From Hippasteria phrygiana (Eukaryota > Echinodermata > Asteroidea > Valvatida > Goniasteridae), in contig JAZGUH010000184.1 in the NCBI GenBank assembly GCA_037893225.1, positions 2,232,001-2,296,000 on the forward strand: a stretch of 64,000 bases of DNA, read 5' to 3'. Positions 20,832-64,000 of this stretch are shown here, piece by piece. Made by a program: the position numbers and the translations under genes. Position 1 is the first letter of the stretch. The number at the start of each line of letters is the position of its first letter. The notes under the pieces are model-generated. The model searched no databases. It saw only the letters and a list, made by a program, of their open reading frames with translations, and was not told where the DNA came from.

Positions 20832-20845
20832 CGTAGTATTTGGTA

Positions 20846-21328
20846 TTAAAGGTAGTGTACATGATTGGTCAGTGTTGCAATTTTCAAGAATGGGCGGATT
20901 TGGGGGTTAGTATGTTATAGGAAATATCGTTCCACTGACCTTTTTAAAGTTTTACGTTGTTGGATGGCGAAAAAACGAGATAAAAACGGCGCTCGTTTTC
21001 GACCGTCGGGCGGATGATAGCCTTTAGTCAAGGCGTACGTGGCTAACTGGGCGCGTGACGCGCCCCGAATGCTAGCATGTCCGGGGCGCGCCACTCGTCC
21101 AGGTAGCCACGCGCGCCTTGACTAAAGGCTACCGGGCAGTTTTCCCAACGATTTCCAGCTGGAAATCATTGGAAAACGATATACATTTCCACTTTTCTTA
21201 ACGACAGCTCACCTGGTGCCATAATTTCACAGGGTGATTGAGACTACTATTAACTTACAGTCTAAGGTATTTCGTAATAATTCATAAAAAAAAATTGTAG
21301 TATTACCAATCGTGTACACTACCTTTAA
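20846..21328 (+). mobile_element. GC-hairpin MITE flanked by TTAA (copy 1)
   Basis: TTAA at 20846-20849 and 21325-21328. Inverted ends aggtagtgtacatgattggt and accaatcgtgtacactacct. The core has a long GC-rich stem (caaggcgtacgtggctaact pairing with ggtagccacgcgcgccttg) with tagcctttagtc/gactaaaggcta outside it. It is repeated at 25288-25770 by the tandem duplication, with relatives at 14537 and 40672. Confidence 0.9.
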
Positions 21329-21393
21329 AAGGCCTAAGAGGTACATACCATTATTGGTCGAGATGACCAATAGATCTTATGCGTAGCTGCAAT

Positions 21394-21859
21394 CAGACTT
21401 GTAACGAGTTACTGAATTTTGTGACTCGAGTCATTTTTAATAAAGAAGTGACTTGAGTAGAGTCATTAGGTCAAGTCAGTGTGGAGTCGAGTCAAATATT
21501 TTGCTCAAGTCAATTTGAGTCATAAATATTTTAGCAGCACATAATAAATAAACAAAAGAGGGTAAGTCATTTGTAAGCAATTTTAAAAATGTATATCAGG
21601 GCAAGTACATGTACATATGTAAAACTACAATTCACTCTTGATGAAGACCTGCTACAAAGCCAGAGTCTGTGACGTGACACGGTGTATGTTTGTGTCGATA
21701 AGTGGCCAATTTATTATTGGGACTCGAGCCTCTTCTGGTGAGAGACTCAAGATGAGTCGAGTCATTTGCTCACAATGACTCGAGTCGAGTCATTTACCCG
21801 TCGGGACTTGAAGTCAAGTCGAGTCACCAAAAATTGTGACTCGAGTCATTACAACTCTG
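21394..21859 (+). mobile_element. hAT-like MITE built from GACTCGAGTCA motifs (copy 1)
   Basis: Ends cagacttgtaacgag and cattacaactctg are inverted. Eight-base flanks gctgcaat (21386-21393) and gcagcaat (21860-21867) differ at one base, an 8-bp duplication typical of hAT elements. The interior repeats gactcgagtca and gagtcgagtca in degenerate form about a dozen times. The same element is at 25836-26301. Confidence 0.85.
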
Positions 21860-21867
21860 GCAGCAAT

Positions 21868-24132: not shown

Positions 24133-24473
24133 GGGAGCACTGCCTAACCCATGGTCGAGCCAGGCCGTTGAAAAGCCTTGCCAAGGCCCGGGCCTTCGGG
24201 CTTTTATAATCTGTTGGTTGTACACAATAAACTGTCCAATAATGCTGGAGTCCAGCCAGCTCCCATTGTTCACCCAGACTTGATCTCCGGCTCGTAAATG
24301 AAATGACAACAAAAGCAATCACTAGTAGGGGGGGGGGGGGGGGGGGGGGCTAGATGTTCTATTGTTAGGTGATTTGTAGCTCACAATAGCAAGACTAAAA
24401 GCCAGAAGGTCCGATCCGGGCGTGGCCAGGCTTTTCAACGGCCTGGTCCGACAATGGGTTAGGCAGTGCTCCC
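24133..24473. mobile_element. Harbinger-like MITE with poly-G core (copy 1)
   Basis: Inverted ends gggagcactgcctaaccc and gggttaggcagtgctccc, same family as 12104-12598. A run of 22 G (24328-24349) sits near the middle; in copy 2 of the duplication (28576-28919) it is 25 G. It is flanked by TAA at the left and TGA at the right. Confidence 0.8.
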
Positions 24474-25273
24474 TGAGACGTCTGCACCAATAAGCTGGAG
24501 GTCCTGGGTTCGAGTCCCACCCGAGTAAGCCTGTGTTTATTTTTTGTTTTTTTCACACAGGCTCTCGGAAAGCACTGAGCATAGAGTGGTTAAGCTGCCA
24601 AGCCCGTGTTATCTGGTTTACATCTTCAATTTAATGGATTCGGCCTACTAATGGTTTATGGAAGAAAACTAATTATTTTATCTTCCTGAAAATATATTTC
24701 TATTTTGTTTTAAGTGCGAATATTAAACCCGTATGAATTAAGAGTGTGTCGCTTCTATTTTTAATATTTGAAACTCATCGCATCCTGTTTATGTTGTAGT
24801 CGGAAGATTCTTTTGATGGAATGTTTCATTGGAAAGCTGATGATTTTTTTTTCGTCACAAGGCAAGTTCGCCCTGAACAGGGTTAAAAGCCGCTTGAGGT
24901 ACGGAGCTACAAAAAGATAAAGAATCAAAGGTACAAGAGGTAGCAATTAAGATTCCTCTTGAAGCAGGAAAGATCGTACGAAGATATATCAGGCAAACAA
25001 AATTCCAGAGATACAGAACGAGGGAAAAGGCTATTGGCATAGCTTTTTGATCCACATCTAAGTACAGCTATATAGGCCTATTTTGGTGGGAACAGGCGGA
25101 GAGCCGAGTTTCACGCTCAAACACCCTAACTGGAGGAACCACGCTGGACAAGCCGGTGGAACATTTACCACAAAATTTCTGTAGAAACGGACTATTACAT
25201 GTACATGTATAAAAGCAGCAGAACGGCGAGAGAGTGATTGTAAGGATGAAACCAACTCTTCTCCAACCAGGGG
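24474..25273. other. Last part of duplication copy 1, no gene
   Basis: It begins with a B-box fragment (gaggtcctgggttcgagtcc, about 24498-24520) of a second SINE type. The remainder has short open frames without domains and a tacatgtacatgtata run near 25195. Confidence 0.55.
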
Positions 25274-28200
25274 CGTAGTATTTGGTATTAAAGGTAGTGT
25301 ACATGATTGGTCAGTGTTGCAATTTTCAAGAATGGGCGGATTTGGGGGTTAGTATGTTATAGGAAATATCGTTCCACTGACCTTTTTAAAGTTTTACGTT
25401 GTTGGATGGCGAAAAAACGAGATAAAAACGGCGCTCGTTTTCGACCGTCGGGCGGATGATAGCCTTTAGTCAAGGCGTACGTGGCTAACTGGGCGCGTGA
25501 CGCGCCCCGAATGCTAGCATGTCCGGGGCGCGCCACTCGTCCAGGTAGCCACGCGCGCCTTGACTAAAGGCTACCGGGCAGTTTTCCCAACGATTTCCAG
25601 CTGGAAATCATTGGAAAACGATATACATTTCCACTTTTCTTAACGACAGCTCACCTGGTGCCATAATTTCACAGGGTGATTGAGACTACTATTAACTTAC
25701 AGTCTAAGGTATTTCGTAATAATTCATAAAAAAAAATTGTAGTATTACCAATCGTGTACACTACCTTTAAAAGGCCTAAGAGGTACATACCATTATTGGT
25801 CGAGATGACCAATAGATCTTATGCGTAGCTGCAATCAGACTTGTAACGAGTTACTGAATTTTGTGACTCGAGTCATTTTTAATAAAGAAGTGACTTGAGT
25901 AGAGTCATTAGGTCAAGTCAGTGTGGAGTCGAGTCAAATATTTTGCTCAAGTCAATTTGAGTCATAAATATTTTAGCAGCACATAATAAATAAACAAAAG
26001 AGGGTAAGTCATTTGTAAGCAATTTTAAAAATGTATATCAGGGCAAGTACATGTACATATGTAAAACTACAATTCACTCTTGATGAAGACCTGCTACAAA
26101 GCCAGAGTCTGTGACGTGACACGGTGTATGTTTGTGTCGATAAGTGGCCAATTTATTATTGGGACTCGAGCCTCTTCTGGTGAGAGACTCAAGATGAGTC
26201 GAGTCATTTGCTCACAATGACTCGAGTCGAGTCATTTACCCGTCGGGACTTGAAGTCAAGTCGAGTCACCAAAAATTGTGACTCGAGTCATTACAACTCT
26301 GGCAGCAATCTTTGAGGTCCTTTTTGTCCTTCAAATTCTGTAACAATGTAAGCACGAATGGTCTATGCCTGACCGTCGGTAACAAAGACATTGGCCACTA
26401 TGCATAAGGTCTGTCGACATACGAAGAAATGACTTTACGCCTTGTTTATGTGTGTGTGCTTTACATAGCAAGGTGGGGACGTTGTCCAGCTGTGCTGTTT
26501 AATGTGCATGTAAACAAAGCGTGTCGTCATTCCTTCGTAGATCTATGGCATAATAGACTTAATCCATTAAACCACACCAATTTACGTATTGACTTGGGCG
26601 GAGTCAAATTGAATATTCAAATATTCGACCTTATATTCAATCGAATATTGGGGTGTCAGGACGGCCGATTTTTAGGCAAGTCAAGTATTTAAGAGGCAGT
26701 CTAATTAACGCTCGAAACTGCTCATTATCATAACGGATTCTCACTTTTATGATTATCGCCAGCACCAAGCAATGATTTAGTAAAGGTTTTTTAGCATGTG
26801 TGCAAAAATGCAGAAATCCTTTTTTTTTGGCTCTGGTACGGTGAGAAAATATTTGTTTCCCGACAAAAAATAGGAACAGGTACATTGAACATGTACATTC
26901 ATCAATAGTGTTTGTAAAACAGATAGATAGCCTGCTGTCACACAATTATTTAGGCAGAAACCAGTCACGAAGTCACGGATGCAGTTTTGTTAGAATTTTT
27001 GTTTTACTTTTTCCCCTTCTTATATTCCTTTGCATTTCACCTTCGAAAATAAATATTTGAATATTCAATCAAATATTGACCAAACACAGCCGGTGTAATA
27101 TGAAAATCGGACCCCCCTCCCTATTACATGTACATGTATTGGTTCAGCCCTCTCACGTGACCGGCCACTCTCCGGATTATCTTCACTTACATGTAGGCAT
27201 GTGCACCCATACCAATGAGCCCGTATTTCATAGCGACTGAAATGCACGCTACACCGGGACTATGGTCCGACATGTCCGATAAGTCTGACGTGTGCATGTG
27301 CTGCGGTAATTAGTCTGTAGGTCTGGGCGGAGCTTATAGATTGGTCCGTTGTTGGTGAAGCTACTACGTGCGCTCTTGTATTGTACTACGTTAGAGGACA
27401 AGAGGAGAAAGGAAATACAAAAGAATCTTTCTTGTCCTCGAGAATCGGTCTTTTGTTAAAATCGGTCCTCGAACGTAAAGATACGTGCTTAGTCTATGCA
27501 TGGAGGAAGGAGGGGTTGGGTTATATTATAGGAAACACAAAGCATTGTCCTCACGAGTATAGGAAAGTACGACTGGGTGAGTTTGTATAGTTATTTAAAC
27601 CGTGGACCTTTAATAAAGAGGACAATAGGGTCCAAGATTGTGTCAAGGTCCACGTTTGAAAATCGTGTACAAAACATATGGGAGGCCTTCCGAAAAAGTT
27701 GAAGTACAAACAAAAGAGGGACAATAGGAGGTCCACGATTGAAGGTGTTTGTTTACAAACGTGGGTGTGTGTGTGTTTTACATTAGTCTCCTTACGGGGT
27801 ACCGGGAAGAAAGGGTAACAATGGGGACAATGATACCCCACAAGGGAGTCTTCAGAAATCCAGGTACCCCACAAAGTTATCGCTATGGCTTTTGAGATTT
27901 CAATAGTGACAAAGGAGAATAAAAGAAGGAAAGTAAAGTCCACAATAGAGGTAGCCCATATCTACCCATATGTGAGGATGAGTGACCTGTCTGGGTTTAA
28001 GCCTGTTAAAATTTGTGTTTTGGAAGACACTTGCTAACATTGTTGCATGTATAATAACATAAGGCCCCAAAAATGATGTTGGCCTTCGTGACCGACCCTA
28101 AGACATAAGTAGGGTCACGTTTTTTTTTTTTTTTTTTTTTTTTTTTGAATTTTTTAAAATCTTACCTTTTCCCGCACAAAATAAAGAAGTTTTATTAAAA

Positions 28201-29719
28201 TAATTGTCTTTAAATACAGCTACGACGGCGCAATCATTTATTTCGCTGTGAATCTCACATTTAAATAAGCAAATTTTTTGCCTCCCGACATGCGTACTGG
28301 TAAATAAAAAACGACTCTTTCTCCTGATTTTTCCGATTTAAGGGCAACACAATTTGTTTTTACTTGTCGCCTAATCACTGAAATCTTTTTCTTTTGTATT
28401 TAATATAATAATGTTCTGTATATGAATATTCAAGATCTCGAGAGAAAATGCCTCTTGATTAAGCCTAAGGGCAAAAATCTGTTCTATTTTACGTAATACC
28501 TGAGGCATATTCCATCTTTATTTGCTGCGACATCGGATTCGAATCGGCAGCCGACCCTGGCAAGCGAGTGGTTAAGGGAGCACTGCCTAACCCATGGTCG
28601 AGCCAGGCCGTTGAAAAGCCTTGCCAAGGCCCGGGCCTTCGGGCTTTTATAATCTGTTGGTTGTACACAATAAACTGTCCAATAATGCTGGAGTCCAGCC
28701 AGCTCCCATTGTTCACCCAGACTTGATCTCCGGCTCGTAAATGAAATGACAACAAAAGCAATCACTAGTAGGGGGGGGGGGGGGGGGGGGGGGGGCTAGA
28801 TGTTCTATTGTTAGGTGATTTGTAGCTCACAATAGCAAGACTAAAAGCCAGAAGGTCCGATCCGGGCGTGGCCAGGCTTTTCAACGGCCTGGTCCGACAA
28901 TGGGTTAGGCAGTGCTCCCTGAGACGTCTGCACCAATAAGCTGGAGGTCCTGGGTTCGAGTCCCACCCGAGTAAGCCTGTGTTTATTTTTTGTTTTTTTC
29001 ACACAGGCTCTCGGAAAGCACTGAGCATAGAGTGGTTAAGCTGCCAAGCCCGTGTTATCTGGTTTACATCTTCAATTTAATGGATTCGGCCTACTAATGG
29101 TTTATGGAAGAAAACTAATTATTTTATCTTCCTGAAAATATATTTCTATTTTGTTTTAAGTGCGAATATTAAACCCGTATGAATTAAGAGTGTGTCGCTT
29201 CTATTTTTAATATTTGAAACTCATCGCATCCTGTTTATGTTGTAGTCGGAAGATTCTTTTGATGGAATGTTTCATTGGAAAGCTGATGATTTTTTTTTCG
29301 TCACAAGGCAAGTTCGCCCTGAACAGGGTTAAAAGCCGCTTGAGGTACGGAGCTACAAAAAGATAAAGAATCAAAGGTACAAGAGGTAGCAATTAAGATT
29401 CCTCTTGAAGCAGGAAAGATCGTACGAAGATATATCAGGCAAACAAAATTCCAGAGATACAGAACGAGGGAAAAGGCTATTGGCATAGCTTTTTGATCCA
29501 CATCTAAGTACAGCTATATAGGCCTATTTTGGTGGGAACAGGCGGAGAGCCGAGTTTCACGCTCAAACACCCTAACTGGAGGAACCACGCTGGACAAGCC
29601 GGTGGAACATTTACCACAAAATTTCTGTAGAAACGGACTATTACATGTACATGTATAAAAGCAGCAGAACGGCGAGAGAGTGATTGTAAGGATGAAACCA
29701 ACTCTTCTCCAACCAGGGG
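25274..29719 (+). repeat. 4.44-kb direct tandem duplication, copy 2
   Basis: Near-identical to 20832-25273; see that entry. Contained elements: TTAA-flanked GC-hairpin MITE 25288-25770, hAT-like MITE 25836-26301, poly-T 28120-28146, Harbinger-like MITE 28576-28919 with G25 at 28771-28795. The sequence diverges from copy 1 after aaccaggggc (29720), where the MITE at 29716 continues. Confidence 0.95.
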
Positions 29720-29957
29720 CCAATTTCATAAAGCTGTTAAGCACAAACATTTGCTTGGCATGCAAATGCTTCCTTGATAAAAACTGGATTACCAACCAGA
29801 TGTCCATGTGTGGAATATTGCTTTTGACTGGTATTCAGCTGTTGTTTGCTTAGCATGAAAATTACATGGATTTGTGGCTGGTAACCTGTTTTTATTAAGC
29901 AAGACATTTTCATGCTAAGCAAATTTTTGTGTTTAACAGCTTTATGAAATTGGCCCC
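29716..29957. mobile_element. MITE with ggggccaatttcataaagct ends
   Basis: Left end ggggccaatttcataaagct and right end agctttatgaaattggcccc are perfect inverted repeats. The interior holds gcttagcatgaaaat and gctgttgtttgcttagc blocks. Related copies are at 31485-31692 (fragment) and 31983-32553 (nested). The duplication breakpoint lies within its first five bases. Confidence 0.9.
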
Positions 29958-31790: not shown

Positions 31791-31927
31791 GAACAAAGAC
31801 ACTGACAATTTGGGAGACCGCCAACACGGGGCAAGATAGCTCGGTCGGTGGAGCGCCGGCACGGTGTTCCGGAGGTCGCAGGTTCGAATCCCGCTCCTGC
31901 CAAGTTTTCTTTGATCACTTTGAGAAT
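31791..31927 (+). repeat. tRNA-derived SINE, copy 4 (fullest head)
   Basis: Order: gacaatttgggagaccgcc, caagatagctcggtcggtgg (A-box), ccggaggtcgcaggttcgaa (B-box), cccgctcctgcc, then ttctttgatcactttgaga. It has both the A-box segment lost at 3498 and the segment lost at 2592, so it serves as the reference copy of this family in the window. Confidence 0.85.
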
Positions 31928-44864: not shown

Positions 44865-45333
44865 CTAAATGTGTCCCGTTTCTTTTGTGGGTAAATTCTC
44901 CTTGGTCACAATGTCAGGGGCAGCCATATTCTTGAGAGCTAGCGAGCTGGAACTCGTGGCGGTTCCCGACCGCGAACGCAGCCCTGTGGTCTTGGTTGTC
45001 AGCGAGCGAGAGCTTTGCTGTCCCCGCCGGGCTCCGGCCCCCGAAGACAGGCAACGGCAGAGGCACCCTATCAGGCAGGACCGGTGCTTGGAACTAATCA
45101 GGAACATTATCCAGGGATCCAGACACGTGTTGACAATGGCCATGATGTAGGAGGCCTTTTGGAGCCTGGCAAGCGCTTCCCAGCTCACAGGCAACCCCAA
45201 CTGTATTACCATCAAGTGAAAGAACAACGGGAACCAACAGACGACGAAGAAGAAGGTGATGGCAAGTACGGCGGCGGCCAGACGTTTGCGCATCCTGATC
45301 TGCCTGGCCATAGCGTCGCTGACATTCTCGAAT
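44865..45333 (-). CDS. Class A GPCR, exon 2 (TM6, TM7, C-tail)
   Basis: The exon starts after the acceptor ctaacacag (AG at 45335-45334) and completes the Arg codon begun in exon 1: CAG AG|A TTC GAG AAT GTC. It continues with a basic loop (RQIRMRKRL), TM6 with the CWFP motif (FFFVVCWFPLFFH) and TM7 with NTCLDPWIMF, the position of the usual NPxxY. Cysteines follow (CLIGCLCRC), likely palmitoylation sites, then a Ser/Thr-rich tail. The spliced protein is 390 aa, typical for a peptide-type receptor. DPWIM in place of NPxxY is a departure. The ligand class cannot be fixed: galanin/allatostatin-A/kisspeptin-like and bombesin-like are both possible. Confidence 0.9.
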
Positions 45334-45436
45334 CTGTGTTAGAAAATGCATTCATCCATTGTGAAATTTTCGGGTGTGATTTTCTATTCAAAATGCACAG
45401 CAGGGTTATAGGCGGATTGGTTGTTAAAGGTAAAAA

Positions 45437-45581
45437 GGTACCGAAGTTTGACGTCAGTTGGCACGACAACTGGTTCCAGGTTTCGACTGTTCCTTTGTTA
45501 ACCATCCAGTCATGCAAACACATTGAAACAAACACAATTATTCTGGTTCTAAACATTACATTGACGTCATCACTTCGGTAC
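45437..45581. mobile_element. Small MITE with ggtaccgaagt ends
   Basis: ggtaccgaagtttgacgtca and tgacgtcatcacttcggtac are inverted; relative nested at 12205-12316. It lies in the GPCR intron about 100 bp upstream of exon 2 in gene orientation, so it is close to the branch-point region. Confidence 0.75.
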
Positions 45582-46016
45582 TTTATAGTACACAACATTT
45601 GCTTTTGCTGTAATTTATTAAGAAATGAATGGCTTTGGGGGGTTTAGTATTTTACAGCAAATACTGTAATAGTCCATGGGCCAGAGGCCAAAATTTCACT
45701 TATTGGTACCACCTGAGGTGGCAAAATCTAATAACATTTTTTGGAAAGGTCTATGTCTAAGGATGATAAATTGATGTGATAGCAATCCCAGGTTGGTAGC
45801 TTAGTGGTAGTAAATGCCCACTTTTTAAGCCCAGTCAGAATGAGGTCACTACATAAATCCTTAGCAGTTAGGTTAGGATACAGTTGATTAATTCGCAATT
45901 ACACCATTATGCTTTGTTGTATAGTTCAGCGGGAAGCACTTAAATAGTGCATATTTATAAGTTGTCAAGCCAGAGTACTGTAACATAAGTAGTGTGTTGG
46001 GTCTACAGTGGACTCA

Positions 46017-46480
46017 TTAGCATAATAACAGGAAACACAAAAGGCACCTAAGAATCTTTAGGGGACTCATTAGCATAAAATAAAATATAAAAAAACTAAA
46101 AAAAAAAAAACAGAAAAAACATAAGAAACCTAAAAATCTTGATAGGACAGCGTAGGACGTAAGAATCTTAATAGGACAGAACCTAAGAATCTTTAGCGGA
46201 CCATTAGCATAATTAAAGGAAAAACAAAAGGAACCTAAACATCTTAATAGGACAGCGTAGGACCTTGGAATCTCTATAGGACTCATTTACATGAGCCTGA
46301 TGCTAAGAATCTCTATAAGACAGTATAGGACCTAGAAATCTCTATCGGACAGCACATATGAATTGTGAGAGCCTGGAAATCTCCATAGGACTATGGGATA
46401 GGATGTGAATGGGTGAGCCTAAAAATCTTAATAGAACAGCATATGAATTGTTGGAATCTTTAAAAGAACATTAAACAAAT
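46017..46480. repeat. Degenerate aatctnnataggac array
   Basis: There are more than ten loose copies of (g/a)aatct(t/c)(t/a)ataggac, some joined to ggactcattagcataa. It begins about 100 bp outside the palindrome and runs into its left arm; a similar group occurs at 50935-51110. Mirror copies are in the right arm. The array crossing the palindrome end suggests the break occurred inside it. Confidence 0.7.
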
Positions 46481-46674
46481 ACAAAGAAAAATACACAAAA
46501 AAATGGGTCTGTTTGTAGAGCAAGTTAGATCGACCCCATTCGTGTGGGAGGGGTGTTGCGTAAGCGAATTCGACAATGATTTGCCAACAGACAATTTTAT
46601 GGAATCTTATTTAAAGAATGAGTTTTGAGGTTATTGGAATTTTAGAAATGACTTTTTAGCGTCAAAGTGAAGAA

Positions 46675-47151
46675 TCAACACAGAAATAAGATGCCACAGA
46701 GCAATGGGAACATATCAGCATGTGCAATGGAACAATTAACACGCAAGATTTGTTGGAAATGACTCACGTCACCTTCGTAGTCTATTGTGCAATCGCGCGA
46801 ATGGGTTTTACGTGTGCAGACATGTACCAGTTTGTACCGATCATAATGTCTGTGGTGGCTGAAAATATGAAAACATACGTTTTGTCTTAAAAGTTGTGGT
46901 AGTGGAACACTCACCGGTGAGCAGCATATATACAGTCCGACACTGCAGAGATATTCACGGTAAATTCCAGAGAGCAAGTAATAACCCATACGTCCTATTA
47001 TGGCCAGGACCGGAGTGATGGTCAGCCCCACAAATTGGTCGCACCGATATTCCTCATATCTTATCAGTTGCACAGAGCATATCCGGCCGGCCACACTGCC
47101 GCCAGAACAAAGCAAGTAAAACTGTAGATGCTGCGTACGCGATACAAACAC
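46675..47151 (-). CDS. Hypothetical 158-codon frame in left arm
   Basis: The longest open frame of the arm, preserved unchanged at 58932-59408 (+). It is Cys-rich and hydrophobic, with a possible membrane segment (LTITPVLAIIGRMGYYLLSG). A GT donor-like site (CACCG|GTGAGTG) lies inside. No family recognised; it could be a chance frame or part of an unknown exon. Confidence 0.25.
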   Translation of the reverse strand: MFVSRTQHLQFYLLCSGGSVAGRICSVQLIRYEEYRCDQFVGLTITPVLAIIGRMGYYLLSGIYREYLCSVGLYICCSPVSVPLPQLLRQNVCFHIFSHHRHYDRYKLVHVCTRKTHSRDCTIDYEGDVSHFQQILRVNCSIAHADMFPLLCGILFLC

Positions 47152-48419
47152 CGCGTATAGCTCACTGTTATGTATGGCCGTATTGCGTTACAATTCTGCA
47201 CCCTCCGTGTTGTACATACATGTACATGCCGAGCTGGATAGCCTTGGTGGTTCGATAAAGTTTAATCCCCAGATAAAAGCATCCGTTAAAGACGGTTTTG
47301 GGTATTCACGCATACACTTCGTTATGGGGACAATTTCTTTTGTTTGAAAATCCCCATAACGTTTTGGGTGTCCAGTACAGGGGTCTAGAGGTAAATTGGG
47401 GTTAGGGTTATATGAAAGAAAATGGAGAGAAATACATATTAGGGTGATGTTGAAAATTTTGGGTCCAAAGAATTATCAGGGTTTGAGTATAGAGAGAGTT
47501 TCCTTAAGCACACGAACCCTACGGGATGTCCCCATAACCCAATGTGGGAAAAGTATGTATAACCTTCATTGTGTATGGTTTCGTCCAAGGATCACTAGAG
47601 TCACGGTTACCTATGCTGAGCGTGCCGTACTTGTTTATAATAAGATAGCTGATGAGCTTACGTAATTCCTTAATCGGCAGCTAGGCAATTAAATTATTAC
47701 CCTGCTCGACCTAATAGACGGTGCGATTATTGTACAAACACAAATGCTAAACTATGATGATTGTCCACAAAGCAAACAGGCAGGGATAGACGGACTTAAT
47801 GATGAGGTATACATGTACCTCCATGACGGACTCTGTTAACCGTAATTTTGAAATAAAACTCAACTAAATGTATTTATTTATTTATTTATTTTCTTTTTTT
47901 TACAAACTTCATCGTCCTTTCTATATTTTTTCTTTAAAATGGAAGAACATTGTGTATAGTCCGTCAAATTTACATGATGCGTTATGGAAACATTCACCGA
48001 TTCATATCATAACATTAGTTTCTTTGTTTCGTTATAAAAAAAAACGTCCAAGGTGAGGGACAAAGTGTGAATTTTTCAGTCGACTTTCAGCTACTTCTTC
48101 TATACACGTGTTGGCTTACCTTTACACGTGTTAGCATACCTTCTCTAACGAGTAGGCCTATCCGCTATATGTACACACTTCTGTGTGTGTAAACAACATT
48201 GCGTAAGAGCTACCAGCAAAATGATCCCTTTATTTGTTATTGTGACGTGACACGACCATACAAGGCAAAAGAAAGGAAGGAATAAACTCGTATAAACACG
48301 ATGTTTTCTGTCTACGTTAAGATTGTTGCTCCTAAATTTCTTTGTTTCATCGGACTGGGAAGTACAAAGTGAGCCATGTAACGTAAAGTAACCGTGCAAA
48401 AGGTTCACGTAATAAATTA

Positions 48420-51400
48420 AAACATAAAACGCAAAACTAGAAATAAAGAAAGGAAATTACCCCCCAAAAAACAAAAAAACTAACAAAAACTAAAAGTCAA
48501 ATTAAAAAAAAGTACAAATTAAAAGTAAAATCGTAAAATATACGCTAATATGATTAACGTAAAAACTAAAACAAAATATCAAAGTAAACATACTATGAAA
48601 ACTCACGAAAACAGAATATTGAAGCGATGTAAAAGCAAACGACTAAATAATGTAAAAAACAAAAACAAAATCAAACTAAAAATAAATATTTGAATAGGGC
48701 ATGCAAAGTAAAATGTTCAAAGTAACAAAACGTTTTCGACAAAATGTGCACAAATAACATTTAAGGGTTTTTTCTTCTCTTGTTTTTTGTTACTCATATT
48801 CTGATATTTTGTGTATCTTATGGTATTGTATTTTAAAATTACTTTTCCTAAAGTAGGGTATACTGTATACTATACTTACACTTGATTGGGTTTACGTCAT
48901 CCCATAAAAGTTCAATACAAATGCAAGAACTCAAAGAATAAACTAAGAAAATATGGCTATTACGAGGAAGCAAACTACGAAAAAAAGGAATGTAGCATTA
49001 AATAAAACAAGACACGGAAACGAATAAATAGACAGAATTCATTATGAAGTATTGGAGGGCAAGAGGATTATGTTTTTAATCACCCTACTGTAATGTAGGT
49101 CTATATACTATAATAATTGGTCTGTAAATGAGTACATAGTTTATTGGTGGGAATCGTTCATGGTAACCGGTTTGCTCCGTCTATTATTTGGAGACTATGT
49201 AGGCCTATTGGGAGCGCTTGTAATAAATGTGTGGGGTCAGCTCGTCCATACACTAGCTCATGGATGGCCTATATTTTGGGATAATCTTCACTGTTAAACT
49301 ATTTCGACGACCTGTTACCCCGGAAATTCTGTGTTTTTGTAAAAGAAACATAAAAATTAACCAGGCCGTGGATGGATTCGGTCAGTTATACGGTTGTACA
49401 CGAGACTTACTTGTAAAGCGACTGCCCAGTTTAAAATGTCAGACTTGTATATTACCCAAGTAAACTGAATCTGGGGTTAAATTATTTAACATTAAACAGT
49501 TTATTAACCTTACCGAATAGGCCTAAGCCTTCAATATATTAGTGTTATCCTCACGATTTGGACGCAATTACAATATTCATGTTCTAAAGAAGTCCGTGCA
49601 GCCACATAATTATTTCATGGCAAATTGATTATAAACCTTTTATGCACAAATATCTTAGTAATAAAGACAGCCTTAAATTGAAAAAGAAAGAAACCCTGAA
49701 TTGCATTTTACCGTCTTGTTGCGTTCGTTGGATATTTTTTGGAACGATGTCTTCTTTGAAATTTAGAGAAAGATATTACACATCTTGTTTTTTAGTGAAC
49801 TATTCCTTTAATTGTGCCACCAGTTTCTTTTTCACTGTGCCCTGCAGTCAGTTTATACACGCTAAATGTCTCAAAATAATTCCCACTTGTATGACATATC
49901 AAAAGAGCACAATTTAAAGTAAACACAAAGTAAACAGTAAACATTTGCAAAAGGCAAAACATCGAAAAGTAATGCCTCACAACAATCACAAGAAGTAACG
50001 TTAACAATTCAACACATTATCTACAAGTAAAATCGCGAAAACTAAAATATTTACACGAATATATGACAGGCGTAAAAACAAACAACCGAAAACAGATTAT
50101 AAAAACCAAAGTATTAATTTATTTAACGAAACGGAAAAACAAAGAACAAAAAACAAAAATTCAATTTCCTTTTTAAAAACCAAAACAAAACAAAATAACA
50201 GAACAAAACAGAACAAAACAAAACAAAAAAGAAAAACAGAAAAAACTGAAAAAACTGAAAAAATGAAAACTAAAAACAAAAAAAACAAAAAAAGACTGAA
50301 AACTAAAAAACAGAAAAACAGAAACAAAAACAAAATAAGAAATACAAAACTAAAACAAACGTCGAAAGTAATGCGTCACAACATGTTTAAATCACAAACA
50401 AGAACGAAAATAATCTCAAGTAAAACTGTGAAAACAGTGCGCGCAATCAAACGCGCGTATAAAGCAAAAACCGAAACACACTATTCAAACAAGCATATAA
50501 TAAAACAGAAAAACGGCACACCTAAACTTTCAAAAGTGAAAACTTTCAAAACAATTTAATGTCAAAACACAAGGCATCGGAAATGTTTGCGTCACAGTAT
50601 GTTTAAATCACGAAAAAGAAGTAACGTTTGCATTTCAACACACAACCACACGAAATTAATCTCACAACTGTGAAACACTTTGCACTAATATAAAACACGT
50701 AGTGCACATCAAACACAAATACTGCAACACATTTACATAACAGATAAACCTACATACAAATACACAAAACTAAATTAATCTTAGGTAAAACTGAAAATAG
50801 TCAAGCATACACGAACGCATTTCATGCAAAAACCGTAAAACACAACTTAAAAAAGCTTTACAATTTTAATATGACGAACACGTAAATACACAAGCCTGTA
50901 CATTTTATAGAGAACATTGAGCGAGTTTGGGGAGATAGAGAACTGGGAACCTTGGAATCCCTATAGGACAGGATATGAATGGAGGGAACCTAGAAATCTC
51001 TATAGGACCGGAAATGCATGAGTTGGAAAATAAAGGGGACCTTGTCCTATTAATCTTAATAGGACGGTATATGCATGAGTTGGAACACAAAGACAACTAT
51101 GTGGACCTAGGATTACGTATGAAACAAAGGTAGACCTTGGATGGCGGACGGAATAATGCACGAGTTTGAGGGAAGAATGTAATTTGTTAGCATTACCGCG
51201 TTAACAACTACGAGTGTAATGGTGTCCCAATGCAGTCCCATTTCACCATGTGTAAACTGTTTGTGTAAGAAATATGTTCATCCGTTAAATTTCTTTGTTC
51301 AACCGCACCCTTAAAATAATTCTTCAAACGGGTTTATTGCAAAATGGAAAGCAAAAAGTAACGTTTGCAATTCAATACACAAGTTTACTGTACACGAAAA

Positions 51401-52250
51401 ATAACCTAAAGTAAAAAAAAAAAAAAAAAAAAAAAAACGCTCGTAAGAAAATGCACGTCAAACAATTGAATCGTAAAACACAGAAAATAAAAGCGTTAAC
51501 AAATCCATTACACGCAAAAGCTTTGCAAAACTAAACTTTCAAAAGTAAAAACTTACAAATTTGTTAATGTTACACAAAACTTAAACCATAATTGTAAAAA
51601 CAGTCAAGCACTTACACGAATATAACGTATGCAAAACACCCAACCGAAAACAACCCAAAGCAAAACTGTGAAAACATTGCGCGCAAGAAAACGCTAGCTA
51701 AACACATTCGTAAAACAGAAAAACAAAAGCGTACAGAAATATTAAAACAAATTTATTACACGCAACTGATAAAGCTACGTACAACTAAACTTTCAAAAGT
51801 AAAATGTACTTTAAACATCGAAACTCATCGCTACATGTTTCAATCTTGAAAAAGAAGCAACGTAGCAATTCAATACACAACTACACGAAAATTATCCAAA
51901 ATAGAAGTGTCAAAATTGTCAAGCATTAAAAAGTGATACTTTCGCAACATGAAAAAGATCTAAAGTTTGCAAACCAACACTCAGCTACAAGACAATAGCC
52001 TGAAGTAAAACCTTTAAAAATAGACAAACATCTAAACGTGTATACAATGCGTACGACACACAACTGTACTAAGACTTATTAAATACACAGATCTAAAAAC
52101 ATAATGTCCAACACATCAAACTGCATATGTCATATGTAAAACGTCAGTCATGTAAAACAAGATTGCAATACAAAACGTAAACGCACGAAAACGATGAAAA
52201 CTACAACTGAGACAACGGTTCAGGCCTTGAAAACAGCAAATAACCACTAA
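48420..52250 (+). repeat. A-rich strand-asymmetric diverged repeat zone
   Basis: The + strand is rich in A (aaaacaaaa, taaaactgaaa) and poor in G over almost 4 kb. Blocks resembling aagtaacgtt(t/a)(g/a)caattcaa(c/t)acac recur near 49993, 50631, 51358 and 51858, each followed by (a)cgaaaat(t)a. A23 lies at about 51415. The open frame at 50263 is a Lys/Thr/Asn low-complexity product of this composition. Confidence 0.7.
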
Positions 52251-52993
52251 CAACATAGTCTTGAGCCATGAATACACCCACCACAATATCCACACAATTC
52301 AAAACACCCAGTCTAATAACACCGTACATTTAAAACAACCTCGGGTACTCAATACAAACGCTACTCCAGTATTAAAACATCCCTGTACTATCGCAAGGTT
52401 TTTGGGTGATCAAGTTTGTCGCAACACTTAATTACTGGTCACTTCTTCAAGTTATACATGTTTATTACAGCGTACGTGGTTCTCCAGGTTAGTCGTTGTC
52501 CTAAAAAAGACTTCCAGCCCCTTCTTTGTCCCATAGGTAAATTTAAGTTACACTGATCCACTGTGGGCTATGAATGCAGTATCCATTGTAAACACAGCGT
52601 TGTGCTAAAAGGATTTCCAGCCCCCTTTAATTGCATAAGCAAAACTATGCTTTAATGATCTGCTTGTATGGTGTAAACTCACACGGTCTGGCTATGCAGG
52701 AGGCGCCCTTGGATTATTTACCGATTGACTAGCCATTTGCCAATAAATTGGTGTAGGCCTACATATACCATGCCACACACACAACTCTCTCAATGGCCAA
52801 TCATGCAAAATACATGTACATGTAGTTACTTATAGGGCAGGTGCTCTCACAGGAATTTGAGCCAATGTAAACAAGCACGAGTGTCATCAGTTAATTATTG
52901 GTATATCTCGAATGCAGCCCCATATCTCACCATTTATAAACTTTGTCACATGTTTGATAGTTCAGCTTCAACTTTGTGCATGCAATACTTTAA

Positions 52994-53091
52994 AGTAAAC
53001 TAATTGAAAAACAAGTTAAATTAATTTTATAACAAAAAGAAAATGATAGGACGCAATTTCCAACGTTTCATTGCACATTATCTGTTATTTA
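52994..53091. repeat. 98-bp central spacer of the giant palindrome
   Basis: Unpaired sequence between ctttaa (52993) and ttaaag (53092). It begins aagtaaactaattg and ends atctgttattta. It is AT-rich and unrelated to the arms as far as I can see. Confidence 0.9.
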
Positions 53092-56000
53092 TTAAAGTAT
53101 TGCATGCACAAAGTTGAAGCTGAACTATCAAACATGTGACAAAGTTTATAAATGGTGAGATATGGGGCTGCATTCGAGATATACCAATAATTAACTGATG
53201 ACACTCGTGCTTGTTTACATTGGCTCAAATTCCTGTGAGAGCACCTGCCCTATAAGTAACTACATGTACATGTATTTTGCATGATTGGCCATTGAGAGAG
53301 TTGTGTGTGTGGCATGGTATATGTAGGCCTACACCAATTCATTGGCAAATGGCTAGTCAATCGGTAAATAATCCAAGGGCGCCTCCTGCATAGCCAGACC
53401 GTGTGAGTTTACACCATACAAGCAGATCATTAAAGCATAGTTTTGCTTATGCAATTAAAGGGGGCTGGAAATCCTTTTAGCACAACGCTGTGTTTACAAT
53501 GGATACTGCATTCATAGCCCACAGTGGATCAGTGTAACTTAAATTTACCTATGGGACAAAGAAGGGGCTGGAAGTCTTTTTTAGGACAACGACTAACCTG
53601 GAGAACCACGTACGCTGTAATAAACATGTATAACTTGAAGAAGTGACCAGTAATTAAGTGTTGCGACAAACTTGATCACCCAAAAACCTTGCGATAGTAC
53701 AGGGATGTTTTAATACTGGAGTAGCGTTTGTATTGAGTACCCGAGGTTGTTTTAAATGTACGGTGTTATTAGACTGGGTGTTTTGAATTGTGTGGATATT
53801 GTGGTGGGTGTATTCATGGCTCAAGACTATGTTGTTAGTGGTTATTTGCTGTTTTCAAGGCCTGAACCGTTGTCTCAGTTGTAGTTTTCATCGTTTTCGT
53901 GCGTTTACGTTTTGTATTGCAATCTTGTTTTACATGACTGACGTTTTACATATGACATATGCAGTTTGATGTGTTGGACATTATGTTTTTAGATCTGTGT
54001 ATTTAATAAGTCTTAGTACAGTTGTGTGTCGTACGCATTGTATACACGTTTAGATGTTTGTCTATTTTTAAAGGTTTTACTTTAGGCTATTGTCTTGTAG
54101 CTGAGTGTTGGTTTGCAAACTTTAGATCTTTTTCATGTTGCGAAAGTATCACTTTTTAATGCTTGACAATTTTGACACTTCTATTTTGGATAATTTTCGT
54201 GTAGTTGTGTATTGAATTGCTACGTTGCTTCTTTTTCAAGATTGAAACATGTAGCGATGAGTTTCGATGTTTAAAGTACATTTTACTTTTGAAAGTTTAG
54301 TTGTACGTAGCTTTATCAGTTGCGTGTAATAAATTTGTTTTAATATTTCTGTACGCTTTTGTTTTTCTGTTTTACGAATGTGTTTAGCTAGCGTTTTCTT
54401 GCGCGCAATGTTTTCACAGTTTTGCTTTGGGTTGTTTTCGGTTGGGTGTTTTGCATACGTTATATTCGTGTAAGTGCTTGACTGTTTTTACAATTATGGT
54501 TTAAGTTTTGTGTAACATTAACAAATTTGTAAGTTTTTACTTTTGAAAGTTTAGTTTTGCAAAGCTTTTGCGTGTAATGGATTTGTTAACGCTTTTATTT
54601 TCTGTGTTTTACGATTCAATTGTTTGACGTGCATTTTCTTACGAGCGTTTTTTTTTTTTTTTTTTTTTTTTTACTTTAGGTTATTTTTCGTGTACAGTAA
54701 ACTTGTGTATTGAATTGCAAACGTTACTTTTTGCTTTCCATTTTGCAATAAACCCGTTTGAAGAATTATTTTAAGGGTGCGGTTGAACAAAGAAATTTAA
54801 CGGATGAACATATTTCTTACACAAACAGTTTACACATGGTGAAATGGGACTGCATTGGGACACCATTACACTCGTAGTTGTTAACGCGGTAATGCTAACA
54901 AATTACATTCTTCCCTCAAACTCGTGCATTATTCCGTCCGCCATCCAAGGTCTACCTTTGTTTCATACGTAATCCTAGGTCCACATAGTTGTCTTTGTGT
55001 TCCAACTCATGCATATACCGTCCTATTAAGATTAATAGGACAAGGTCCCCTTTATTTTCCAACTCATGCATTTCCGGTCCTATAGAGATTTCTAGGTTCC
55101 CTCCATTCATATCCTGTCCTATAGGGATTCCAAGGTTCCCAGTTCTCTATCTCCCCAAACTCGCTCAATGTTCTCTATAAAATGTACAGGCTTGTGTATT
55201 TACGTGTTCGTCATATTAAAATTGTAAAGCTTTTTTAAGTTGTGTTTTACGGTTTTTGCATGAAATGCGTTCGTGTATGCTTGACTATTTTCAGTTTTAC
55301 CTAAGATTAATTTAGTTTTGTGTATTTGTATGTAGGTTTATCTGTTATGTAAATGTGTTGCAGTATTTGTGTTTGATGTGCACTACGTGTTTTATATTAG
55401 TGCAAAGTGTTTCACAGTTGTGAGATTAATTTCGTGTGGTTGTGTGTTGAAATGCAAACGTTACTTCTTTTTCGTGATTTAAACATACTGTGACGCAAAC
55501 ATTTCCGATGCCTTGTGTTTTGACATTAAATTGTTTTGAAAGTTTTCACTTTTGAAAGTTTAGGTGTGCCGTTTTTCTGTTTTATTATATGCTTGTTTGA
55601 ATAGTGTGTTTCGGTTTTTGCTTTATACGCGCGTTTGATTGCGCGCACTGTTTTCACAGTTTTACTTGAGATTATTTTCGTTCTTGTTTGTGATTTAAAC
55701 ATGTTGTGACGCATTACTTTCGACGTTTGTTTTAGTTTTGTATTTCTTATTTTGTTTTTGTTTCTGTTTTTCTGTTTTTTAGTTTTCAGTCTTTTTTTTA
55801 TTTTTTTATTTTTAGTTTTCATTTTTTCAGTTTTTTCAGTTTTTTCTGTTTTTCTTTTTTGTTTTGTTTTGTTCTGTTTTGTTCTGTTATTTTGTTTTGT
55901 TTTGGTTTTTAAAAAGGAAATTGAATTTTTGTTTTTTGTTCTTTGTTTTTCCGTTTCGTTAAATAAATTAATACTTTGGTTTTTATAATCTGTTTTCGGT

Positions 56001-59000
56001 TGTTTGTTTTTACGCCTGTCATATATTCGTGTAAATATTTTAGTTTTCGCGATTTTACTTGTAGATAATGTGTTGAATTGTTAACGTTACTTCTTGTGAT
56101 TGTTGTGAGGCATTACTTTTCGATGTTTTGCCTTTTGCAAATGTTTACTGTTTACTTTGTGTTTACTTTAAATTGTGCTCTTTTGATATGTCATACAAGT
56201 GGGAATTATTTTGAGACATTTAGCGTGTATAAACTGACTGCAGGGCACAGTGAAAAAGAAACTGGTGGCACAATTAAAGGAATAGTTCACTAAAAAACAA
56301 GATGTGTAATATCTTTCTCTAAATTTCAAAGAAGACATCGTTCCAAAAAATATCCAACGAACGCAACAAGACGGTAAAATGCAATTCAGGGTTTCTTTCT
56401 TTTTCAATTTAAGGCTGTCTTTATTACTAAGATATTTGTGCATAAAAGGTTTATAATCAATTTGCCATGAAATAATTATGTGGCTGCACGGACTTCTTTA
56501 GAACATGAATATTGTAATTGCGTCCAAATCGTGAGGATAACACTAATATATTGAAGGCTTAGGCCTATTCGGTAAGGTTAATAAACTGTTTAATGTTAAA
56601 TAATTTAACCCCAGATTCAGTTTACTTGGGTAATATACAAGTCTGACATTTTAAACTGGGCAGTCGCTTTACAAGTAAGTCTCGTGTACAACCGTATAAC
56701 TGACCGAATCCATCCACGGCCTGGTTAATTTTTATGTTTCTTTTACAAAAACACAGAATTTCCGGGGTAACAGGTCGTCGAAATAGTTTAACAGTGAAGA
56801 TTATCCCAAAATATAGGCCATCCATGAGCTAGTGTATGGACGAGCTGACCCCACACATTTATTACAAGCGCTCCCAATAGGCCTACATAGTCTCCAAATA
56901 ATAGACGGAGCAAACCGGTTACCATGAACGATTCCCACCAATAAACTATGTACTCATTTACAGACCAATTATTATAGTATATAGACCTACATTACAGTAG
57001 GGTGATTAAAAACATAATCCTCTTGCCCTCCAATACTTCATAATGAATTCTGTCTATTTATTCGTTTCCGTGTCTTGTTTTATTTAATGCTACATTCCTT
57101 TTTTTCGTAGTTTGCTTCCTCGTAATAGCCATATTTTCTTAGTTTATTCTTTGAGTTCTTGCATTTGTATTGAACTTTTATGGGATGACGTAAACCCAAT
57201 CAAGTGTAAGTATAGTATACAGTATACCCTACTTTAGGAAAAGTAATTTTAAAATACAATACCATAAGATACACAAAATATCAGAATATGAGTAACAAAA
57301 AACAAGAGAAGAAAAAACCCTTAAATGTTATTTGTGCACATTTTGTCGAAAACGTTTTGTTACTTTGAACATTTTACTTTGCATGCCCTATTCAAATATT
57401 TATTTTTAGTTTGATTTTGTTTTTGTTTTTTACATTATTTAGTCGTTTGCTTTTACATCGCTTCAATATTCTGTTTTCGTGAGTTTTCATAGTATGTTTA
57501 CTTTGATATTTTGTTTTAGTTTTTACGTTAATCATATTAGCGTATATTTTACGATTTTACTTTTAATTTGTACTTTTTTTTAATTTGACTTTTAGTTTTT
57601 GTTAGTTTTTTTGTTTTTTGGGGGGTAATTTCCTTTCTTTATTTCTAGTTTTGCGTTTTATGTTTTAATTTATTACGTGAACCTTTTGCACGGTTACTTT
57701 ACGTTACATGGCTCACTTTGTACTTCCCAGTCCGATGAAACAAAGAAATTTAGGAGCAACAATCTTAACGTAGACAGAAAACATCGTGTTTATACGAGTT
57801 TATTCCTTCCTTTCTTTGGCCTTGTATGGTCGTGTCACGTCACAATAACAAATAAAGGGATCATTTTGCTGGTAGCTCTTACGCAATGTTGTTTACACAC
57901 ACAGAAGTGTGTACATATAGCGGATAGGCCTACTCGTTAGAGAAGGTATGCTAACACGTGTAAAGGTAAGCCAACACGTGTATAGAAGAAGTAGCTGAAA
58001 GTCGACTGAAAAATTCACACTTTGTCCCTCACCTTGGACGTTTTTTTTTATAACGAAACAAAGAAACTAATGTTATGATATGAATCGGTGAATGTTTCCA
58101 TAACGCATCATGTAAATTTGACGGACTATACACAATGTTCTTCCATTTTAAAGAAAAAATATAGAAAGGACGATGAAGTTTGTAAAAAAAAGAAAATAAA
58201 TAAATAAATAAATACATTTAGTTGAGTTTTATTTCAAAATTACGGTTAACAGAGTCCGTCATGGAGGTACATGTATACCTCATCATTAAGTCCGTCTATC
58301 CCTGCCTGTTTGCTTTGTGGACAATCATCATAGTTTAGCATTTGTGTTTGTACAATAATCGCACCGTCTATTAGGTCGAGCAGGGTAATAATTTAATTGC
58401 CTAGCTGCCGATTAAGGAATTACGTAAGCTCATCAGCTATCTTATTATAAACAAGTACGGCACGCTCAGCATAGGTAACCGTGACTCTAGATCCTTGGAC
58501 GAAACCATACACAATGAAGGTTATACATACTTTTCCCACATTGGGTTATGGGGACATCCCGTAGGGTTCGTGTGCTTAAGGAAACTCTCTCTATACTCAA
58601 ACCCTGATAATTCTTTGGACCCAAAATTTTCAACATCACCCTAATATGTATTTCTCTCCATTTTCTTTCATATAACCCTAACTCCAATTTACCTCTAGAC
58701 CCCTGTACTGGACACCCAAAACGTTATGGGGATTTTCAAACAAAAGAAATTGTCCCCATAACGAAGTGTATGCGTGAATACCCAAAACCGTCTTTAACGG
58801 ATGCTTTTATCTGGGGATTAAACTTTATCGAACCACCAAGGCTATCCAGCTCGGCATGTACATGTATGTACAACACGGAGGGTGCAGAATTGTAACGCAA
58901 TACGGCCATACATAACAGTGAGCTATACGCGGTGTTTGTATCGCGTACGCAGCATCTACAGTTTTACTTGCTTTGTTCTGGCGGCAGTGTGGCCGGCCGG

Positions 59001-59961
59001 ATATGCTCTGTGCAACTGATAAGATATGAGGAATATCGGTGCGACCAATTTGTGGGGCTGACCATCACTCCGGTCCTGGCCATAATAGGACGTATGGGTT
59101 ATTACTTGCTCTCTGGAATTTACCGTGAATATCTCTGCAGTGTCGGACTGTATATATGCTGCTCACCGGTGAGTGTTCCACTACCACAACTTTTAAGACA
59201 AAACGTATGTTTTCATATTTTCAGCCACCACAGACATTATGATCGGTACAAACTGGTACATGTCTGCACACGTAAAACCCATTCGCGCGATTGCACAATA
59301 GACTACGAAGGTGACGTGAGTCATTTCCAACAAATCTTGCGTGTTAATTGTTCCATTGCACATGCTGATATGTTCCCATTGCTCTGTGGCATCTTATTTC
59401 TGTGTTGATTCTTCACTTTGACGCTAAAAAGTCATTTCTAAAATTCCAATAACCTCAAAACTCATTCTTTAAATAAGATTCCATAAAATTGTCTGTTGGC
59501 AAATCATTGTCGAATTCGCTTACGCAACACCCCTCCCACACGAATGGGGTCGATCTAACTTGCTCTACAAACAGACCCATTTTTTTGTGTATTTTTCTTT
59601 GTATTTTTTTAATGTTCTTTTAAAGATTCCAACAATTCATATGCTGTTCTATTAAGATTTTTAGGCTCACCCATTCACATCCTATCCCATAGTCCTATGG
59701 AGATTTCCAGGCTCTCACAATTCATATGTGCTGTCCGATAGAGATTTCTAGGTCCTATACTGTCTTATAGAGATTCTTAGCATCAGGCTCATGTAAATGA
59801 GTCCTATAGAGATTCCAAGGTCCTACGCTGTCCTATTAAGATGTTTAGGTTCCTTTTGTTTTTCCTTTAATTATGCTAATGGTCCGCTAAAGATTCTTAG
59901 GTTCTGTCCTATTAAGATTCTTACGTCCTACGCTGTCCTATCAAGATTTTTAGGTTTCTTA
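53092..59961 (-). repeat. Giant palindrome, right arm (6.87 kb)
   Basis: Inverse complement of 46122-52993. Differences seen: one 2-bp indel near 58490 and single changes near 53338, 55795-55806, 57818 and 58682. It ends at taggtttctta (59961), 26 bp inside the GPCR intron from the exon 1 donor. The open frame at 58932-59408 mirrors 46675-47151. Confidence 0.97.
58932..59408 (+). CDS. Hypothetical 158-codon frame in right arm
   Basis: Same predicted protein as 46675-47151 on the opposite strand. Retention in both arms reflects arm identity and is not independent evidence for selection. Confidence 0.25.
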   Translation: MFVSRTQHLQFYLLCSGGSVAGRICSVQLIRYEEYRCDQFVGLTITPVLAIIGRMGYYLLSGIYREYLCSVGLYICCSPVSVPLPQLLRQNVCFHIFSHHRHYDRYKLVHVCTRKTHSRDCTIDYEGDVSHFQQILRVNCSIAHADMFPLLCGILFLC

Positions 59962-59987
59962 AGTAATCGAATACAACCGTTACAAAC

Positions 59988-60691
59988 CTCTGCGTAGTAC
60001 GGTACAGTGAAACTGCAATTCTCAGGTAATAAAACGCCACAATGACCAGTGGGATCCCATAGCCGACCAGGAACCGGAAACACTCGTTAACCTTTCGCTG
60101 TGTGTCGTCAACGGGTGACGGGCGACAATAGTCTTTGGAGCTCTTTACTACTGTGGCGAAAAAAAGGGTCGGTATGTTGGTGAGGAAAGACGCCAACCAC
60201 ACCACCGTCACGACGCACCAGTTGCTGGACGCGCACGAGCCGCTCCCCCGGTGTCGCACCTCGATTCCCCCCACGATGGCAGCGTGGCGCTCCCGGCTGA
60301 GGGCGGCGAGCGCGAAGGCGCTGGCGTACTGGGCCACGAACTGAATATATGAGGAGACTTTGCAGGCGGCCTCGGACCCATGCCACCGAGCGTTGATGAG
60401 TATCTTCACGTAGAACACCCCGGGAATGAGAATGTAGAGCAGATCGGCCACAGCAAGGTTAAAGATGAGCACGTTTGGGGCAGTCCGCATGTGCCTGTTT
60501 GCCAGGATGACGTACATCATGCAGACGTTGCCGACGAAACCGATAAAGCACAGGGTCGAAATGACCATTGGGACAGTCAGCTGACTACCATCGCCTGGGT
60601 CGTTACTCCCATCGCCTGGGTCGTTACTCCCATTATTCGTCATAGAATACCGGAAACCTCCGGATTCGTTCGCCATCGCGTCTTGTTTCAC
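59988..60691 (-). CDS. Class A GPCR, exon 1 (N-terminus to TM5)
   Basis: Predicted rhodopsin-family receptor at the plasma membrane, coupling a likely peptide signal to G proteins. From Met at 60691 (MKQDAMANESGG; a second Met at 60676 is possible) it has an N-glycosylation-type NGS, a twice-repeated GSNDPGD, TM1 (GFVGNVCMMYVIL), TM2 (NLAVADLLYIL), TM3 with Cys, TM4 (Trp) and TM5 (GYGIPLVIVAFYYL). The DRY position reads SRERHAAIV: E-R-H. A second Cys precedes TM5, giving the usual disulfide partner. The exon ends CAG AG|GTTTGT (phase 2) and splices to exon 2 at 45333. Reading on without splicing gives a stop after about 22 residues. No signal peptide is evident. Confidence 0.9.
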
Positions 60692-61496: not shown

Positions 61497-61935
61497 ACGA
61501 CGCGACGGCACGACGTCTGCGTTGCATCGTGCCGTCGCGTCGTGCCGTCGCTTCTTTCCCATTACTTCTGGCGTCGCGTTGTGCGTCGCGTCGTGCCGTC
61601 GTGCCGTCGCGTCGTTTTTTTCTAGCTTGCAGGTTTTCTTTCCTCAACGTCGCCCCTTCCGTCGCCCATCGCGTCGTACCGTCGTGCGTCGCGTCGTGTG
61701 TCGCGTCGTGCGTCGCGCCGTGTGTCGCGTCGTGCGTCGCGTCGTGCTCGCGTCGTGCGTCGCGTCGTGCTCGCGTCGTGCGTCGCGTCGTGCTCGCGTC
61801 GTGCGTCGCGTCGTGCTCGCGTCGTGCGTCGCGTCGTGTTTCGCGTCGTGTTTCGCGTCGTGTTTCGCGTCGTGTTTCGCGTCGTGTTTCGCGTCGTGTT
61901 TTGCTTCGTGTTTTGCGTGGAGTAGTCCGGTCATG
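61497..61935 (+). repeat. Degenerate gtcgcgtcgtgc satellite, left array
   Basis: Iterations of gtcgcgtcgtgc and cgtcgtgcgtcgcgtcgtg of about 10-12 bp, in the right third as tttcgcgtcgtg. Arg/Ser/Val-rich open frames in all directions are a product of the repeat. It ends with gcgtggagtagtccggtcat (61915), which reappears inverted at 63480. Confidence 0.9.
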
Positions 61936-63466: not shown

Positions 63467-64000
63467 TGTTCACAATAGCATGACCGGACTACTCCACGCG
63501 TAAAGCCCGGTTCATACTTCATGCGAATGCGTATACGAAGCGAATTCGTTATGGTAACGGAGAACGTCACAATGAAACTTCAATTGTTGACGTCATGAAA
63601 TTCGCTTCGCATTCGCATTCGCATGAAGTATGAACCGGGCTTCACACGAAGCGAAACACGAAGCAAAACACGACGCGAAACACGACGCGAAGCACGACGC
63701 GACGCACGACGCGAGCACGACGCGACGCACGACGCGAGCACGACGCGACGCACGACGCGACACACGACGCGACGCACGACGCGAGCACGACGCGACGCAC
63801 GACGCGACACACGACGCGACGCACGACGCGACACACGACGCGACGCACGACGGTACGACGCGATGGGCGACGGAAGGGGCGACGTTGAGGAAAGAAAACC
63901 TGCAAGCTAGAAAAAAACGACGCGACGGCACGACGGCACGACGCGACGCACGACGCGACGCCAGAAGTAATGGGAAAGAAGCGACGGCACGACGCGACGG
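63467..64000 (-). repeat. gtcgcgtcgtgc satellite, right (inverted) array, runs off window
   Basis: It starts with gttcacaatagcatgaccgg, the inverse of 61925-61946, then after an insertion (63503-63642) continues as acgacgcgacgcacgacgcg to the last base. The pair forms an inverted repeat of at least 400 bp per arm around about 62707. The end lies outside the window. Confidence 0.9.
63503..63642. mobile_element. MITE with aagcccggttcatacttcat ends
   Basis: Left aagcccggttcatacttcat and right atgaagtatgaaccgggctt are perfect inverted repeats of 20 bases, with gcgaatgcg and cgcattcgc continuing the fold. It interrupts the inverted satellite arm, so it is younger than that arm. Confidence 0.9.

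Follow-up and report, generated by a model that had tools for sequence, protein, structure and literature searches.

The window, by which we mean the whole 64-kb stretch of DNA that was analysed, carries on its minus strand an intact receptor gene of 385 codons, whose coding exons (60676-59988 and 45333-44865) join at GT...AG ends. Its features, in the direction of transcription, are as follows.

59988..60676, minus strand: coding exon 1, receptor TM1-TM5
45334..59987, minus strand: intron of 14,654 bp, 94.4% palindrome
59962..59987, minus strand: intron stub of 26 nt, from the splice donor to the right palindrome arm
45334..46121, minus strand: unduplicated 3' part of the intron, 788 bp
44865..45333, minus strand: coding exon 2, receptor TM6-TM7 and tail, stop included

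The joined protein matched the Pfam domain 7tm_1 (PF00001) at 2.8e-42. A search with the whole protein returned 11 proteins at an E value of 0.001. The best five carry the names of asteroids (Patiria, Acanthaster, and Asterias), are annotated as bombesin receptor subtype-3-like or neuromedin-B receptor-like, and are 46 to 49% identical to the starfish receptor studied here; a brittle-star relative at about 30% identity came eighth, after those five and two further proteins. Among solved structures, neuromedin-B and bombesin receptors were the best matches, the best PDB chain being a neuromedin-B receptor. On the domain and the best relatives, that is, on matches and not on a tree, the host gene is assigned as a bombesin/neuromedin-B-type receptor of class A GPCRs. 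Two of the relatives (P0006 and P0007) stop 2 and 7 residues past QRF, the last residues of exon 1 here, likely because each reads on into an intron at that point, and this suggests that the intron position is common to them and to the present gene. A second possible donor at 59983, four bases further downstream, would likewise preserve the reading frame if paired with a different acceptor. A preliminary description of this DNA had placed the whole palindrome in one intron and had held both exons to be needed for one receptor; the 385 open codons and the GT...AG ends bear this out.

Anatomy of the palindrome

Self-BLAST of the 64-kb window gave one inverted self-match at 46119-59964, and a MAFFT alignment of both arms with 60-bp flanks was used to set the arm limits and to count the differences between the arms. 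Both agree with the two arms and 98-bp spacer that had been described at 46122..59961. The parts are listed below.

46122..52993, plus strand: left palindrome arm, 6,872 bp; probably original intron sequence (arm alignment; repeat unit crossing the outer boundary)
46046..46280, plus strand: degenerate intron repeat in two copies, one (46046-46175) across the left boundary and one (46181-46280) within the arm
52986..52997, no strand assigned: self-complementary sequence of 12 bp across the boundary between the left arm and the spacer; possible fold-back seed
52994..53091, no strand assigned: spacer, 98 bp, read as a fold-back loop
53092..59961, minus strand: right palindrome arm, 6,870 bp; probably inverted copy

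The palindrome is near-perfect over a total of 13.8 kb, with arms that are ~99.85% identical, and its length and identity exclude a chance origin. Where the preliminary description had seen one 2-bp indel and a few substitutions, the indel stands (47593-47594) and the substitutions come to precisely eight columns, at left-arm positions 46476, 47400, 48267, 50277, 50285, 50286, 52002, and 52745. These differences are scattered along the arm length. Half of the substitutions fall in A-rich sequence: one is 46476, and the other three cluster near 50280 and may represent fewer than three events. The remaining four, like the indel, are set in ordinary sequence and have the look of genuine base changes. 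The arms contain a single A/T run of at least 12 nt, which is 25 nt long in both. Identity ends within a few bases beyond both arm ends, and the flanks are not mirrored.

The spacer is single copy within the window, its best other match there having an E value of 0.34. At an E value of 1e-3, the arm matched nothing elsewhere in the window except the adjacent left flank and A/T-rich tracts, and no third arm copy was found in the 64 kb, which holds two copies only. Twenty of the 25 listed stop-to-stop open reading frames (ORFs) of at least 60 amino acids were scanned against Pfam and gave no match above the curated cutoff; three matches below it fell in two ORFs. An ORF of 170 amino acids, the second longest of those listed and the longest outside a low-complexity tract, had no relative at an E value of ≤0.1 among 5.8 billion proteins (16 candidates). 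Rfam, run on the whole window at gathering thresholds, gave no match in the palindrome; two tRNA matches were found elsewhere in the window.

The long arms and very high identity resemble those of mammalian sex-chromosome palindromes, from which the present structure differs in its very short spacer and in arms with no recognised gene and no evidence of arm-to-arm conversion. No title among the literature matches listed concerned this locus, and in the echinoderm literature nuclear intron palindromes were absent from the titles and opening lines of the matches.

Polarity and origin of the arms

The two arms are not equivalent. The left arm continues into native intron repeats, a polarity that goes beyond the preliminary description. 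In the repeat copy that spans the left boundary (46046-46175), the first half belongs to the flank and most of the second to the arm; order and orientation are those of the in-arm copy, and an A-rich expansion parts the two halves. The two copies align with a score of 99 across the boundary. The left flank part alone scored 60 against the in-arm repeat, equaled by none of 1,000 mononucleotide shuffles (best, 35), and a longer left flank scored 64 against a longer stretch of the arm, equaled by none of 500 dinucleotide shuffles (best, 42). The right flank scored 15, reached by 106 of 1,000 mononucleotide shuffles, and 18 in the dinucleotide comparison, reached by 113 of 500, both with low power since the exon begins after only 26 nt of intron; the 26-nt stub alone scored 14, reached by 175 of 500 dinucleotide shuffles. 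At that end, the right arm breaks off abruptly in the middle of a repeat unit, 26 bp from the splice donor. The left arm is likely native because the degenerate repeat runs across its outer end in conserved order, and the right arm is likely the copy because the left boundary looks seamless while the right arm stops mid-unit. The left arm, then, is probably original intron and the right arm its inverted copy. The argument rests on the left boundary, with continuity taken from the repeat unit and not from an ancestral allele. AT skew has the same sign in the 788-bp intron remnant (0.058) and the left arm (0.183), which is weak and was not counted as evidence.

This is likely a young inverted duplication made by a known mechanism in an unusual place. 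On balance, and with real room for doubt, we favor an origin in the intron in which a broken end folded back to prime synthesis and was afterwards joined to the stub beside the splice donor. The break would have lain between the present spacer and that stub. Its 3' end, once resected, would have folded back through a loop of ~98 nt and primed on a short inverted homology, for which the 12-bp self-complementary sequence is a candidate. Extension of this primer would have copied about 6.87 kb of intron, and the copied end would then have been joined to the donor stub, presumably by end joining, leaving one extra inverted copy and undamaged coding sequence. The seed and the outer join are inferred. 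Two features expected of a fold-back inverted duplication were found, a spacer (98 bp) that is single copy within the window, and an inverted second copy adjoining a source copy that is continuous, via the repeat unit, with the old flank. The preliminary description had offered either recent origin or continuing arm-to-arm conversion for the arm identity. Recent origin is compatible with the eight differences in 6,870 bp (0.00116), which give an age of about 0.06 to 0.19 million years at assumed rates of 1e-8 and 3e-9 per site per year, and continuing conversion is not needed.

Published fold-back inversions likewise place an inverted copy beside its source, with a nonduplicated spacer and often a short inverted homology at the spacer edge (human, PMC3907307; yeast, PMC7467729 and PMC10622511). 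All 21 sequenced human junctions described had a spacer, of 766 to 70,466 bp; 13 showed 2 to 8 bp of inverted microhomology, homology of about 300 bp was seen in three and an insertion in five (PMC3907307). The 98-bp spacer here is shorter than any of these, which counts against fold-back. In yeast with a defect in Mre11 or Sae2, most fold-back loops are reported to be short (medians of 4 and 3 nt); where both work, the reported median is 36 nt and loops reach many thousands (PMC7467729). By analogy, a 98-nt loop would fall in the large-loop class. Genetic work in yeast points to Pol delta as the polymerase that fills in from the fold-back primer (PMC10622511). Unlike the inversions in these three studies, which are chromosome scale, the present palindrome is interstitial, intronic, and 6.87 kb per arm, with no visible terminal deletion, and it comes from animal sequence, whereas those cases come from patients or selected yeast strains. 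Because the palindrome is interstitial, the fold-back model needs a second-end joining.

The main rival to a young inverted duplication is that an assembly or library artefact made the second arm, from fold-back or amplification-chimera reads or from misjoined contigs. Fold-back reads mirror everything up to the read end. Mirrored flanks, the mark of such an artefact in long reads, were absent from the arm alignment; indeed, the right flank is unmirrored and carries exon 1, so an artefact would take a pair of false joins, one falling precisely at 59961. The case made in the preliminary description against a missed adapter keeps its force as far as the differing flanks and the exons on either side are concerned; an artefact that includes both false joins we regard as unlikely though hardly negligible. 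Fold-back reads are documented in nanopore genomic data, at about 0.55 to 0.6% in one study and 1 to 4%, at times 20 to 30%, in another that it cites, and they are described as virtually absent from the PacBio HiFi data of three PacBio samples (PMC12870357). Whole-genome amplification is likewise described as yielding artificial palindromes (PMC6218980). Fold-back reads and amplification chimeras share with the palindrome a sequence followed after a short gap by its reverse complement, and the 98-bp spacer lies under the 200-bp limit used for calling fold-back artefacts (PMC12870357); the palindrome differs from them in its unmirrored flanks and in arms that differ by substitutions and not by homopolymer lengths. 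Elsewhere in the window, at 20832-29720, a 4.44-kb tandem duplication has copies distinguished by nothing but one T run and one G run; it is compatible with false duplication and makes an artefact easier to entertain, as does the A-rich setting of four of the eight arm substitutions. The other four and the 2-bp indel, in ordinary sequence, argue against it, and the one long A/T homopolymer has the same length, 25 nt, in either arm, whereas the tandem duplication shows length changes only.

Replication-based template switching, by two switches of an MMBIR-like kind or as the remnant of an ODIRA inverted triplication, would give identical anatomy, with an inverted copy of a neighboring segment inserted by its source, and the ODIRA authors propose that palindromic triplications, being unstable, turn into inverted arrangements of other kinds (PMC10766186). 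The window holds two copies and no third, where an ODIRA triplication would have three with the middle one inverted, and no inverted-homology junction was recognised at 59961 in a comparison limited to the present allele; we consider this origin improbable. Foldback and MITE transposons also have inverted arms around a short center. A giant element of the foldback type, inserted in the intron, would fit with other palindromic segments in the window, such as one of 602 bp at 2861-3462 with a flanking 13-bp direct repeat, and with a 4-bp TAAG repeat at the arm ends. However, the ends of a transposon should both be foreign to the flank, and the native repeat unit runs across the left end, which is therefore not an element end. 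A search for exact direct repeats abutting the arms (lengths of 3 to 12 bp, offsets up to 4) found none longer than that 4 bp, so a target site duplication of 2 to 4 bp is the most that could be present, and no transposase or other domain appeared in the 20 ORFs scanned. Together, these observations led us to reject a transposon origin, which we hold to be very improbable. An inversion polymorphism merged by the assembler was dropped by reasoning, since a forward-sense spacer follows the right arm and a simple inversion of arm and spacer cannot give that order.

Possible consequences for transcript and chromosome

The preliminary description had pointed to a self-complementary pre-mRNA segment able to form double-stranded RNA (dsRNA), and the capacity is upheld by the predicted fold of the central 398 nt, whose energy of -281.8 kcal/mol compares with a mean of -80.3 for shuffled sequence (z, -38), as expected of any near-perfect hairpin. 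The accompanying idea of dsRNA as a possible ADAR substrate is physically plausible. The intron of the pre-mRNA could fold into a hairpin of ~6.87 kb that leaves 26 and 788 nt of intron outside, and because so little lies outside, splicing may be tolerated. Intronic pairing can bring splice sites together, according to a review (PMC7404189), and by analogy the same might apply to this intron. Any long nuclear dsRNA would arise as a side effect and not as part of a known function. A joint reading of these points, in which we have little confidence, is that a very young germline fold-back inversion, possibly polymorphic, gave the intron a ~6.87-kb hairpin with ~99.85% identical arms that starts 26 nt from the splice donor and shortens the effective distance between the splice sites, that the receptor tolerates it for this reason, and that the locus naturally supplies ADAR or Dicer with long nuclear dsRNA.

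If real, the palindrome would show a fold-back inversion, fresh and interstitial, in the genome of an animal. Since its junctions can both be read and its source copy identified, the mechanism would be testable from the sister allele; an unduplicated allele should place the spacer close to exon 1. The locus would also let one ask, in a natural setting, how splicing, editing, or dicing deals with an intron that is near-perfectly self-complementary over kilobases, and how a palindrome of 13.8 kb, its arms only 98 bp apart, persists through replication. The Mre11 complex of yeast is described as attacking hairpins only when their loops are shorter than 9 nt (PMC8053094), and by analogy the 98-bp spacer could help the palindrome to persist.

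Tandem duplication and adjoining minisatellite

Two head-to-tail copies of 4.44 kb constitute a tandem duplication at 20832-29720. No substitutions separate the copies, whose sole differences are in the lengths of two homopolymers, a T run (one base) and a G run (three bases); it is possible that the duplication was falsely created by assembly, or else that it is real and very recent. Located immediately ahead of it is a minisatellite (18918-20536) of ∼38 copies of a 43-bp unit, with three forward frames open.

Inverted and self-complementary segments

Less than 1 kb upstream of the start codon of the bombesin/neuromedin-B-type receptor, a second inverted structure is formed by 61532-61887 and 63644-64000, an inverted pair with 97.8% identity that contains an array of CG-rich 12-bp units. 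The match runs to the window end, at 64000, and therefore may continue beyond it. The imperfect 602-bp palindrome at 2861-3462 (∼91%) has a 13-bp direct repeat on both sides, at 2837 and 3465, and resembles elements of the foldback or MITE type. Five other self-complementary segments, showing 69 to 78% identity, are perhaps old palindromic elements:

1237-1407, self-complementary segment
5781-6143, self-complementary segment
9214-9484, self-complementary segment
29716-29957, self-complementary segment
62698-63015, self-complementary segment

tRNA genes and related fragments

Two tRNA-Thr genes have opposed orientations:

15599-15671, minus strand, tRNA-Thr (GGT) gene
31830-31902, plus strand, tRNA-Thr (GGT) gene

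Related tRNA-like fragments, perhaps a tRNA-derived SINE, occur near 2624-2689 and 3511-3592.
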